Source: Candidatus Desulfovibrio trichonymphae
GTDB taxonomy: Bacteria > Desulfobacterota > Desulfovibrionia > Desulfovibrionales > Desulfovibrionaceae
Length of the DNA: 64,000 nt
Direction of reading: 5' to 3'
Assembly (NCBI RefSeq): GCF_002355955.1
Contig: NZ_AP017368.1
Span: 496,001 to 560,000, forward strand
Both the position numbers and the translations under genes were made by a program. The notes under the pieces were generated by a model. The model did no database searches. It was given only the letters and a program-made list of their open reading frames with translations, and was not told where the DNA came from. Position 1 is the first letter of the stretch, and every line of letters begins with the position of its first letter. This document shows, piece by piece, positions 45,894-51,368 of the stretch.

Positions 45894-47090
45894 ATGTCAC
45901 AAACCTTCAATGCCGTCAAACAGCAAGAAGAAAACCTGCTCTGCCGTTCTTACAGCCGCTATCCGCTGGCCGTCGCTCGGGGCGCGGGCGCGCACCTTTG
46001 GGATGTGGACGGCAGGAAATATGTGGATCTGCTCGGCGGCTTAGCCGTGACCGGCCTCGGGCATTGCAATGAAGAGCTTTGCGCGACGCTGGAGCGTCAG
46101 GCGCATGAGCTCTGGCACGTGAGCAACCTCTTTTATCAACAAAATCAGCTTGATCTTGCCGAGATTCTGCTTTCCACCACACATCACACAAAGGCCTTCT
46201 TCTGCAATTCGGGCGCAGAGGCCAACGAAGCCGCCATCAAACTGGCCCGCCGCCATATGCGCCGCGTAAAACAGCACAACGCCGCCACCATCATTACCTT
46301 GAATGACTGTTTTCATGGCCGAACATTGGCAACGCTGGCCGCAACCGGCCGTGACGCCTTGAGCGACGGCTTTACGCCGCTGCCGGACGGTTTTGCGCAG
46401 GTTCCGGCGGGCAATCTTGAAGCTCTCTCAAGCGCGATAACACCGGCTACGGCTGCCGTTCTGGTGGAAGTGGTGCAGGGCGAAGGCGGCGTTGTGCCGC
46501 TGCCGGCGGAATATCTGCGCGGGGTGCAAGCCCTTTGCCGGCAGAACGGCATTCTTTTTCTGTGTGACGAGGTGCAGGCAGGTATGTGCCGCACCGGCAG
46601 ATTCTGGGCTTTTCAGCATTACGGGCTTGAGCCGGACATTATCAGCGTGGCGAAATCTCTGGCCAACGGCTTGCCCATGGGTGCCATTTTGGCCACAGAC
46701 GAAGCGGCCGAAGGCTTTGAACCCGGCAGCCACGCCACAACCTTCGGCGGTGGAGCCCTGACCTCGGCTGTAGCCGCAAAAACCGTGGAGATCATGCTGC
46801 GCGACAGTATGGCAGACCGCGCCGCCGCGCTCGGCGAACGCGTAAAAAAACAGCTTGAAGCGCTGCGGCGGAATATGCCGGACAAAATCCGCGACGTGCG
46901 CGGTCTGGGACTGATGATCGGCATTGAACTTGTCGAAAACGGCCGGAAAGTATGGGAGGCACTGCTCAGGCGGGGCTATGTCTGCAACTTGAGCCACGGC
47001 AATATATTGCGCCTGCTGCCGCCCCTTGTCATTGAAGAGACGGATCTGGACGGCTTTGTCAGCACACTCGGGCAAACGCTTCAGATGTAA
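45894..47090 (+). CDS. argD: Acetylornithine aminotransferase
   Basis: The 398-residue class III aminotransferase has FFCNSGAEANEAAIKLAR, LVEVVQGEGGV, LCDEVQAGMCRTG and the PLP lysine in SVAKSLANGLPMGA. It transfers an amino group to N-acetylglutamate semialdehyde in arginine synthesis and may also serve lysine synthesis in other organisms. The ATG at 45894 is preceded by AAGGAG; the frame is open from 45840 without such a signal. Its stop is 4 nt from the solitary CRISPR repeat. Confidence 0.9.
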   Translation: MSQTFNAVKQQEENLLCRSYSRYPLAVARGAGAHLWDVDGRKYVDLLGGLAVTGLGHCNEELCATLERQAHELWHVSNLFYQQNQLDLAEILLSTTHHTKAFFCNSGAEANEAAIKLARRHMRRVKQHNAATIITLNDCFHGRTLATLAATGRDALSDGFTPLPDGFAQVPAGNLEALSSAITPATAAVLVEVVQGEGGVVPLPAEYLRGVQALCRQNGILFLCDEVQAGMCRTGRFWAFQHYGLEPDIISVAKSLANGLPMGAILATDEAAEGFEPGSHATTFGGGALTSAVAAKTVEIMLRDSMADRAAALGERVKKQLEALRRNMPDKIRDVRGLGLMIGIELVENGRKVWEALLRRGYVCNLSHGNILRLLPPLVIEETDLDGFVSTLGQTLQM

Positions 47091-47094
47091 AATC

Positions 47095-47123
47095 AGCTTC
47101 ATCCCCACGTGTGTGGGGAATAC
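47095..47123 (-). CRISPR. Solitary type I-E CRISPR repeat (array remnant)
   Basis: On the minus strand the 29-nt unit contains TTCCCCACACACGTGGGGAT, with the CCCCAC/GTGGGG stem of type I-E repeats, and translates to the familiar VFPTHVGM. Only one copy is present; no spacers or second repeat are seen. It is fused directly to the 5' part of casA. Confidence 0.8.
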
Positions 47124-47333
47124 GCTTGGTCCGTCCAGAGCGGCATGGGCTATGCAAAGCAAAAGCCGCATAAGGGCCACCCGCTCATGCGGACGCACGG
47201 CAAGGTCTTTGTATTCCTGCCCCTCATCAAATATATCCAGCAGACTTGCCAGCCGGGTTTGTCCTTGGAGAGTAAGCACAGGAATCCATACTTCTCTTAC
47301 AAGATTCACGCCTGCTCCTTTGTTTTGGGCCAT
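47124..47333 (-). pseudogene. casA: casA/cse1 N-terminal fragment fused to the CRISPR repeat
   Basis: The frame from 47333 reads VNLVREVWIPVLTLQGQTRL and, later, RPHERVALMRLLLCIAHAAL, DGPS. This is the N-terminus of Cse1/CasA, the large Cascade subunit that reads the PAM. After about 68 residues it runs straight into the repeat (VFPTHVGM). The rest of casA and the genes that normally follow it (cse2, cas7, cas5, cas6e, cas1, cas2) are missing, as if one deletion joined casA to the array. It overlaps the end of cas3 by 28 nt, as in intact loci. Confidence 0.78.
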
Positions 47334-49739
47334 ATAATGCCAAGGGTAGTATTCCAGCCTATATTCTTATCTTTCGCCCCTTGTATATGCACTGAATCGT
47401 CCTGAATCCGTGCCCAGCCGAACAGCCTGTATTCCTTAAGCCAGGCGTCTGGCTTTGCTCCGGCAAGGCGATATTCGAAAATTTTCACCATATTTCTGTG
47501 CAGATTACGCGCAGTTTCGTTGCAAAAGTCGGATGTTGACGTATCTATTACGCTGCCATCCAGCAAGACAAATTTTGTCCCCTCTTTTTTCTGGTACAGC
47601 ACAAAGGGGAATTCTCTATGTTCTATAAGACGGGTGGGGGCGATGTCTCTTCCTCATCTGCCCAGGCTTGTTGCCATATGTTCATCAAGGCTTTGTGTCT
47701 GCGGGCCATATCGCCCCCAATAAGCTGATCATACAGCTCTTGCCAGCCGGAGGGGAGATCATCTGGTTCATTGTAGGTAGCCTCGATCAACTCACGAATT
47801 TGTGATGGCAGAGTAACATGGGATATGCCGGACCATATATTGAGGGCCTGAGCCAGCACATAGGGGGCGTACACAAAGGCCTTGACGCCGAAAGCGTTTT
47901 TGATCTCTTCGGCCCGCATGGCGCGCAATTCCGCCAGAGATACTTTTTCTTGCAGAATAGTGTAAGCAGGGTGCGGGGGGCGGGGCCGGGATGCGCGTTG
48001 ATGCCGTCACAGTCTGCCCATGCGTTGCAAAAGCATATCGGTGGGGGCAAGTTCTGTGAACCAGCATATCCGCATCCAAGTCCACACTTTGCTCCGCTAT
48101 TTGCGTGGCGATCAGAATGGCTCCGTGTTGGCGATTCCTGTTTTTACCGAAAGAATCCATCCAATAGTGTTCCCTCTTCTGACGCATAAAAAAAGGCGGG
48201 CGGGCGTGGAGAAGCCCAAGCTCAACATTGTTTGCTGCACAGGCTTCACGCAGCAATCCATACGTTTCCTGTGCCCTGTCCACACTGTTGCCACAGTACC
48301 TGCGCTCCCTGCGCGGCTTGGTGCAGACTTTGGGCAACCATCTGCTCCTGCGGGGTAAAGACAACAGCAACGCGTTTTTCTTCCGGTGGAGGCGTAGAGA
48401 TGGCTGTCGCCTTTTGCCCCTGCCGATGGGAATGTACGAGCGGGTAAGGCGGCAGGACACCCGTTGTCTTTGGCTGTGCCTCTGGATTGAGAAGATCTGT
48501 GCAGTATTTTTGGGTGAGCGTGGCGGAAAGGACAATGACTGTACAGTGCAGTTCTTGCAGCAGGTCGCACAACTTTTGGATTATACTCCCGGTGTAGCAG
48601 TCGTAGCTGTGTACCTCATCCAGAATTACCACCTTTCCGGCAAGGGCAAGGCGACGTAAGGGGAAGTGCTTAACCGCCAGGGCAGCGAGCATAGCTTGGT
48701 CCGCAGTGCCCACGCGCCTATGGGGGCAAGCAAAGCCCGGCGCGAGGAGGAGAACCAGTTGTGCGCATCAGCGTGGCTTACTTCCTTTTCATGCTGCGCG
48801 GACGGGGCTGGAGACAGTTTAGAAACAGGGGCATTAGTATTCTTGTCCAGCCAAGTATTGGCATGAATAAGCTGTACAGGCTGGTGCATTTTGTTTATGT
48901 ATTTGGCAAATTCTTCTACCCGTAAAAAAATTCTGTTGCTGATGGGGGCTTCAATCACATATACTCCAGGCCCGGTGATGGTTTCACAGGCGGCAAGCTG
49001 CATGGAGTTGGGCTTGAAAGGAAATATGTCTTCAAAGACAAGACCTGATCGTACCTCCAAAGGACCGAGGCCAATCCGGGCAACCGCTTCAGCAGCAGCT
49101 TGTTCCGATGAGGCTGGGATTTTAGCTGGGTCGGCAGAGAAAAAGTTTTCATCAGAGCCGATCCAGTCCGCAAGTGTGAGAAGACCTGCGGCTGTCCACA
49201 TCTCCGGAGAATCCTGCTGCAAAGTGGGTAAGGCTGTGCAGCGGCATTCCTGCCAGAAGTGGCGTAAAAGGGTCTGCCGATCCCCTTCCCAATCTATCTG
49301 GAGTTTTTTATCGGCAGCTTCAGCTTGGGGGAGAGATCCTTCAGTGAATGACCGGGCAATACGACCATGATGTGCTCCGATGATGCTTCCTCAGCAAGCT
49401 TTGGCTTCTTCCTGGCCCTGAACATGCGTCTTGAAAAAGCGCTCCAGCGCATTTTTTGTGCGGGAGGCCGTTTTTCCAATCTCCTTGCTGGGCGGCTTCT
49501 TGAAAGCCATTCATCACCAGCCATGCCGGACATTTTGCCTGGAACTCGCGGGAAATTTTGCCTACATCATGCACAGCTGCAAGAAAGCCAAGAAAGTTTT
49601 TTGTAAAACTTGGAGGAAAGATTGCTTTGTTGAAGGCATCATAAAGGCAATTAAGTACACTACGGACATACTCTCCATGCTGATCTATACCAATGCCAGG
49701 AGTTTTTTTCGATATTGTTTTTGCCCAATACGGAGTCAC
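47306..49739 (-). pseudogene. cas3: cas3 (type I-E nuclease-helicase), multiply frameshifted
   Basis: From a GTG at 49739 (AAAGGGGA upstream) the HD domain appears as FLGFLAAVHDVGKISREFQ. After a frameshift near 49400 come GAHHGRIARSF and LLTLADWIGSDENFF. PGVYVIEAP then jumps to ISNRIFLRVEEFA, deleting the Walker A segment. Another shift precedes KVVILDEVHSYD (motif II) and VIVLSATLT; another precedes AILIATQIAEQSVDLD (motif V). The C-terminal part (AFVYAPYVLAQALNIW) is separated by further frame breaks from the final segment (LKEYRLFGWARIQDD). At least five frame changes plus one motif-removing deletion: dead. Confidence 0.85.
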
Positions 49740-50168
49740 GGTAGTCGTCCCCTTTCAGCAACACTTCAAAGTAGAGCCTATGCCGCCTTTAGCGGTTTCA
49801 TGGCCGATGTGATGCCGCAAATGCTCAATTATTAGATTGAGCGTTCTTATAGCTCCAGAACCACTGAGTGGCAACATTCTGTATGTCTTTGGTGACAAAA
49901 TTTGCTGTATTTCGATATCCTTATTTATGTGTAAATTTTGTTGACAATAAATTTCAATTTCAATATACACAAATTGCCCGGAGTAATCCCCTGCGGGGAT
50001 CACCTAATCTGTCGAATCGACGGCAACAGGCGGACGCCGATGGAAGTGGTTCCGGCAATCCGGCATGTCGCATAAAAAGTTCATACATGCTCGCGTCAGA
50101 CTGTACAGCAGCTGAATGGATGTCATATTTGTCGCATTCAATGTCAAAAATGTCAAAAAGGAGCCATC
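49740..50168. other. Intergenic region between cas3 remnant and FTR1 gene
   Basis: No gene is recognised. It contains a strong plus-strand promoter match (49941) and a short GC palindrome ATCCCC-tgc-GGGGAT at 49986-50000. The first 250 nt are AT-rich and may include the old cas promoter. Confidence 0.45.
49941..49969 (+). promoter_or_regulatory. Candidate sigma-70 promoter for the iron uptake operon
   Basis: TTGACA (49941-49946), 17 nt, TATACA (49964-49969): near consensus. It faces the FTR1 gene and leaves a leader of about 190 nt. No clear Fur box was found. Confidence 0.5.
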
Positions 50169-51368
50169 ATGAAAAAACGGTTTTTTTTAACAGTCTCCCT
50201 TCTGTTGTTCGGCCTGTCATGGACGAATGCGGCATCTGCCACGCAATACAGTACCTGGAACGCAATTGTGGCCGAGATGAGCGTGGTTCTCAACTCATCC
50301 TATGAGATATATCTGACCGGGAATATTGCACAGAGCAAAGAGATGGTAAACAAGGCTTACTTTGATTTTTATGAAACACTGGGTGTGGAACGTGCTGTGC
50401 TCTCGTATGTTTCCGGCAAGCGGGCGTCCATAGTGGAGTATCGGTTCGCCGAGGTAAAGCGCCTGATGACAGAACAGGCCGCAAACAGAGACGTGCGGCT
50501 CAGTCTGGATACCCTCATCAAAATGTTGAAAGAAGATGCGGATCAACTTGACGGTAAAAAAGAAACCGGCTGGGGGGTTTTTGTCGCTTCTCTTCTGGTT
50601 TTACTCCGTGAAGGATTTGAGGCCATTCTCGTGGTGGCGGCCATAGCTGCCTACCTCATTCGTTCCGGCAACAAAAGCCTGACAAAGGTGGTCTATAAAA
50701 GCGCGGCTGCAGCCGTCGCTGCAAGCGCGTTTCTCGCCGTTGCCTTGCAGAAGTTGTTCTCCATCAGTGGCGCCGGTCAGGAGATGGTTGAAGGTTTTAC
50801 CATGCTCCTGGCCGTGGCGGTGCTGTTTTTTGTCAGTAACTGGATGGTGTCCAAAGCAGAGAGCGAGGCTTGGAAGAACTATATTAAAGACAAGGTCGCC
50901 GCCGCCGCAACGACCGGCAGTGTTGCCGCGCTGGCGGCGGCGTCCTTTTTGGCCGTGTTCCGGGAGGGAGCGGAAACAATCCTCTTTTATCAGGCTCTTT
51001 TGGCCGATACCAAGGATCACATGGGCATGCTCTGGTTCGGTTTCGGCGTTGCCTGCCTTTGCCTTGTCGTTCTTTTTGCGGCGATTCGTTTCGGGAGCCT
51101 GCGTATTCCTTTGCGGCCCTTTTTCATCGGCACCAGCATTCTCATGTACGTCATGTCCATCAGTTTCGCCGGCGGCGGCGTGAAAAGGCTGCAAGTGGCT
51201 GATCTTGTGCCCGTGACGCATGTATCGGACATCGCCACTGTGGATATCCTGGGCATCTACCCCACAATGGAAACCCTGTTGCCGCAAGGGGCTCTGCTCA
51301 TTCTCGCTGTCGCTTCGTTTCTTTTTTACATGCGAAAAGGCGCTGCTCTTAAAAAGGCGGCATACTGA
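50169..51368 (+). CDS. FTR1-family iron permease
   Basis: The 399-residue protein has a signal peptide (MKKRFFLTVSLLLFGLSW...ASA), a periplasmic helical domain of about 110 residues, then about seven membrane helices. The two iron-permease motifs are REGFEAIL and REGAETILFY. FTR1 proteins move ferric/ferrous iron across the inner membrane. AAGGAG precedes the ATG. It is the first gene of a six-gene set matching the Campylobacter Cj1658-Cj1663 (p19) order, in which the partner P19 delivers iron in the periplasm. Confidence 0.88.
   Translation: MKKRFFLTVSLLLFGLSWTNAASATQYSTWNAIVAEMSVVLNSSYEIYLTGNIAQSKEMVNKAYFDFYETLGVERAVLSYVSGKRASIVEYRFAEVKRLMTEQAANRDVRLSLDTLIKMLKEDADQLDGKKETGWGVFVASLLVLLREGFEAILVVAAIAAYLIRSGNKSLTKVVYKSAAAAVAASAFLAVALQKLFSISGAGQEMVEGFTMLLAVAVLFFVSNWMVSKAESEAWKNYIKDKVAAAATTGSVAALAAASFLAVFREGAETILFYQALLADTKDHMGMLWFGFGVACLCLVVLFAAIRFGSLRIPLRPFFIGTSILMYVMSISFAGGGVKRLQVADLVPVTHVSDIATVDILGIYPTMETLLPQGALLILAVASFLFYMRKGAALKKAAY

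Follow-up and report, generated by a model that had tools for sequence, protein, structure and literature searches.

CRISPR-Cas systems of 'Candidatus Desulfovibrio trichonymphae' Rs-N31, whose genome has 1.4 Mb and 54.8% G+C, are reported as pseudogenized (PMC7608387, citing Kuwahara et al. 2017). The passages of that paper on Rs-N31 agree with the present analysis in that the immune systems are dead; the same passages describe neither the casA-repeat junction considered here nor the intact locus of a sister genome. Loss of immunity in this organism is already published, and the junctions, the operon exchange, the intact locus of the sister and the parallel collapse of a type I-C locus appear to be new detail.

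Two intact type I-E loci of relatives can be compared with the one studied here. In the MAG Hs463_bin8 (G009, hereafter the sister), a single contig (JAISKZ010000050.1) contains the FTR1 gene, the operon cas3-casA-casB-cas7-cas5-cas6e-cas1-cas2, an array of 14 near-identical repeats GTATTCCCCACACGCGTGGGGATGAACCG and, at the contig end, the 3' part of argD. Each of the eight Cas proteins matches its own Pfam family. One spacer of this array is present as two adjacent identical copies. The locus of G062 (L067) represents the Cas3/CasA lineage closest to the remnant; it is intact, with 96 repeats identical to the exact consensus, and it lies away from argD, unlike the remnant.

The window, that is, the whole stretch of 64,000 nucleotides analysed here (NZ_AP017368.1, 496,001 to 560,000), has 55% G+C and comes from a genome assembled as a single contig of 1.41 Mb. 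Its cas region is very probably a dead type I-E CRISPR-Cas locus of a genome-reduced Desulfovibrio symbiont, decayed stepwise through at least three kinds of event. As a fossil it shows clearly how adaptive immunity vanishes from a protist-embedded symbiont of the termite gut.

Flanking genes

The remnant lies between the same two genes as the operon of the sister, in the same gene order and orientation. On one side there is an intact gene of the argD-type acetylornithine aminotransferase family (45894-47090, plus strand), convergent with the cas remnant. It has 97% amino acid identity to the sister over residues 1-304 and 95% nucleotide identity in the 3' part; among 79 genomes of the genus only Hs463_bin8 has an argD with about 97% identity. 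On the other side, the upstream flank of cas3 (49890-50047) is syntenic with the sister (93% nucleotide identity to L017:4084-3928) and is followed by a gene for an FTR1-family iron permease (50169-51368, plus strand; PF03239, E 2e-30; 93% identity in JAISKZ010000050.1). At the DNA level the flanks are 93-95% identical (argD 95%, FTR1 93%), and between them only the repeat aligns. Thus the comparison with an intact type I-E locus of a close relative, which had been proposed as a check, could be made at the same site. Upstream of the FTR1 gene, a stretch of about 110 bp (50048-50157) is absent from the sister, where the aligned ends overlap by 8 bp; this is a small insertion here or a deletion in the sister. 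In a further locus retrieved with FTR1 (L049, Ncb351_bin103), neither cas genes nor repeats occur beside this gene.

The casA fragment and the lone repeat

The minus-strand reading frame starting at 47333 opens with a 5' fragment of casA (cse1), 69 codons long (47127-47333). The homology to Cse1, on which the preliminary description depended, proved to be real: residues 10-69 match positions 1-61 of the Pfam family CRISPR_Cse1 (PF09481, E 7.4e-15; 55.5 bits against a cut-off of 24.7), TIGR02547 agrees with a Cse1/CasA N-terminus, and identity to the CasA proteins of the relatives G021 and G062 is 64-67%. The fragment covers the first 60 of the 450 profile positions (E 7e-15). Judged by the alignments, CasA homology is certain as far as Gly-Pro (47127). 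The codon that follows, AGC (47124-47126, minus strand), is ambiguous and may derive from casA or from a spacer; the serine occurs in the closest intact CasA ('GPS' in G021) and is absent from other CasA proteins. Here codon 69 of casA meets the 5' edge of the repeat, 0-3 nt from its 5' end.

The repeat itself (47098-47123, minus strand; GTATTCCCCACACACGTGGGGATGAA) differs at one position from the 14 repeats of the sister's syntenic locus, and 0.00 copies of it are expected by chance in the window. No second copy exists in the window or elsewhere in the 1,410,056-bp genome. The lone type I-E repeat of the preliminary description is therefore real and single; however, it is not complete, as 26 of 29 nt are left and the last three are missing.

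As noted earlier, the Cse1 N-terminus continues in frame into the peptide VFPTHVGM, which is indeed the translation of the repeat remnant; the frame then runs antisense across argD, to a total of 301 codons. A coding role for this frame was considered and rejected: spurious repeat peptides are routine in type I-E (arrays of relatives also translate, to VHPHARGEH and RFIPTRVGNT), and a matching frame has a one-in-three chance. The in-frame run is a coincidence and carries no sign of meaning.

Everything between casA codon 69 and the repeat had been described as lost from the locus, and the genome-wide searches bear this out. Profile searches for three of the missing proteins, Cas1 (PF01867), Cas7e (PF09344) and Cas6e (PF08798), found none of them anywhere in the genome, so displaced copies of these genes are missing as well as displaced repeats. 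The sole Cse1 match in the genome is the 69-codon fragment. Type I-E arrays have repeats of about 29 nt and spacers of about 32 nt; here there are one 26-nt repeat remnant and zero spacers. Since Cas7e, Cas6e and Cas1 are absent genome-wide, this is a remnant of a type I-E system and not a system, and the casA-repeat remnant has no CRISPR function.

CRISPR arrays are difficult for assemblers, and genomes of uncultured symbionts are often obtained from amplified DNA. The join of casA to the repeat might thus be an artefact of assembly or whole-genome amplification, not real in the cell. However, the genome is one contig, searches of which turned up neither displaced cas genes nor displaced repeats; there is no homology between casA and the repeat that could mislead an assembler into joining them; the cas3 gene adjoining the junction has decayed independently; and pseudogenized CRISPR-Cas is reported for Rs-N31 (PMC7608387). 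An artefact is extremely improbable.

The cas3 pseudogene

A Cas3 HD-helicase gene is found upstream of casA, as in type I-E operons, as a pseudogene only (47336-49754, minus strand). Alignment with intact Cas3 proteins by tblastn recovers the HD, helicase and C-terminal parts; from 49754 to 47336 the frames follow in the order -3, -1, -3, -1, -2, -1, that is, with at least four frame changes, and there are in-frame stops inside the translated pieces. A stretch of 33 residues including Walker A (GMGKTEA) is missing compared to the Cas3 of the closest relative. Frameshifts, stops and the loss of Walker A have killed cas3. Thus the order cas3 - casA(5') - one repeat - argD given in the preliminary description stands, but cas3 itself is broken.

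Origin of the operon

The Cas3 and CasA pieces of the remnant are 34-67% identical to those of one group of relatives (G062, G082, G094, G005, G035, G070, G008). In G062 the identity is 67% for CasA and 37-52% for the Cas3 pieces. The sister is more distant: its Cas3 is 23-53% identical to the pieces, and no CasA match was obtained in that search; a separate whole-protein search gave 40% identity between the CasA N-termini of the window and the sister. The possibility that the remnant is the sister's own operon in a decayed state is rejected by these identities. Judged by them, the cas3 and casA remnants and the operon of the sister, despite the common site, are of different type I-E lineages.

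The repeat does not discriminate. It differs from that of the sister in one of 26 nt and from that of G062 in two of 26, and as the repeats of the G062 group differ from it by few bases, it fits either lineage. Since two different type I-E lineages occupy the same site, we infer that the operon between argD and FTR1 was exchanged before the decay, in the lineage either of the window or of the sister. Among type I-E relatives whose chromosomes are complete, the nearest two have argD and casA far apart (at 2.02 and 2.71 Mb, respectively, in G021, and at 2.67 and 1.41 Mb in G062). Another group of type I-E loci (L071, L073, L075; genomes G095, G066, G012) has repeats GTCTTCCCCACGCCCGTGGGGGTGTTTCNN that are not constant in their last bases from one copy to the next.

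Loss of the type I-E locus

The order of genes in intact relatives suggests that the ancestral locus would have been cas3-casA-...-cas2-leader-array, situated between the FTR1 gene and argD. A deletion running from codon 69 of casA up to the repeat's 5' edge took out the remaining Cascade genes, cas1, cas2, the leader and all spacers. The loss of these elements is evident from their absence, and the deletion may be estimated from relatives at no less than about 5.6 kb, as the stretch corresponding to the missing interval in G062, up to its array, is about 5.6 kb.

On the opposite side of the repeat, the argD stop codon (47088-47090) lies 7 bp from the remnant. These 7 bp, AATCAGC (47091-47097), are common to the window and the sister. 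Past them, at the junction 47097/47098, the window enters the repeat at once, whereas the sister runs for about 142 bp more before its terminal repeat. A second deletion is therefore probable, judging from the sister: it would have taken the last 3 nt of the repeat and about 142 bp with the predicted argD terminator, and would have ended 7 bp short of argD. On the other hand, the 142 bp of the sister could be an insertion there, as one sister genome cannot polarise the difference.

The preliminary description explained the locus by one deletion. Indeed, if the ancestral array abutted argD directly, one deletion between casA and the terminal repeat, along with the cas3 lesions, would be enough; the break at the left junction is clean, 0-3 nt from the 5' end of the repeat, and terminal repeats are often degenerate at the 3' end, which would explain the three altered nucleotides. 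However, the terminal repeat of the sister is full-length and is separated from the argD stop by 149 bp that hold two strong hairpins, one of them a 15-bp terminator-like site in the argD direction (the predicted argD terminator). Besides, cas3 bears further independent lesions, and therefore a single event cannot explain the state of the locus. Hence an array that always ended beside argD, collapsed by one deletion, is unlikely, and the explanation is not supported in that form: the repeat is cut on the argD side and about 142 bp are gone relative to the sister.

With the cas3 lesions added to the deletions, the loss was stepwise. The sister, whose genome is equally small (1.4 Mb) and whose locus at this site is intact, makes the timing and order of loss testable.

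One possibility is that the repeat persists because the argD mRNA now uses its palindrome as a 3' hairpin, for stability or termination, after loss of the native terminator. The 7-bp palindrome is intact and begins about 10 nt beyond the stop codon, the fold has a z-score of -2.85, the sole substitution in the repeat falls in the loop, and the predicted argD terminator of the sister is missing here. However, there is no T tract, the promoter/terminator scan called no terminator at the remnant, one difference in 26 bases is also expected under neutral drift, and one genome is known. This role is thus improbable. An Rfam search gave no match.

A type I-C remnant in the same genome

The type I-E remnant is not the sole record of CRISPR loss. 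A second locus, of type I-C and outside the window, came to light when the genome was searched for Cas3; it has decayed likewise (C1:285,669-289,028; L083:8670-12029). It consists of a cas3 reading frame of 680 codons, open but truncated, scoring above the cas3_core cut-off, and an array without a leader, made up of 21 identical repeats GTCGCCCCTTCACAGGGGCGTGGATTGAAAC and 20 spacers of 33-37 nt. The reading frame runs in frame into the first repeat; clear homology to Cas3 stops about 30 nt before it, and the C-terminal part is missing. In the closest intact type I-C relative (G018), cas5, csd1, cas7, cas4, cas1 and cas2 lie between cas3 and the array. None of these genes occurs beside the remnant, where the gap between cas3 and the array is too small for any of them. 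Of a type I-C locus, that is, cas3, an array with repeats of the form GTCGC...GTGGATTGAAAC and cas5c-cas8c-cas7-cas4-cas1-cas2, only the truncated cas3 and the 21 repeats are left, and Cas1 is absent genome-wide.

It is conceivable that a shared deletion process or bias, not chance, removed the same interval (downstream cas genes and leader) at both loci and joined the upstream cas gene in frame to a repeat, the type I-E palindrome possibly being kept as an argD 3' hairpin; we consider this highly doubtful, and the history of the locus is one of ordinary genome decay. Deletion by Cas1-Cas2 at the repeat boundary was considered as a particular mechanism and rejected. Proximity of 0-3 nt to a repeat arises by chance in about 7% of cases, given the period of 61 nt, and since clear Cas3 homology in the type I-C locus stops some 30 nt short of the first repeat, the two loci do not point to one consistent boundary for such a deletion. 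Thus the type I-E and type I-C loci have lost the same interval, although the breaks lie differently with respect to the repeat.
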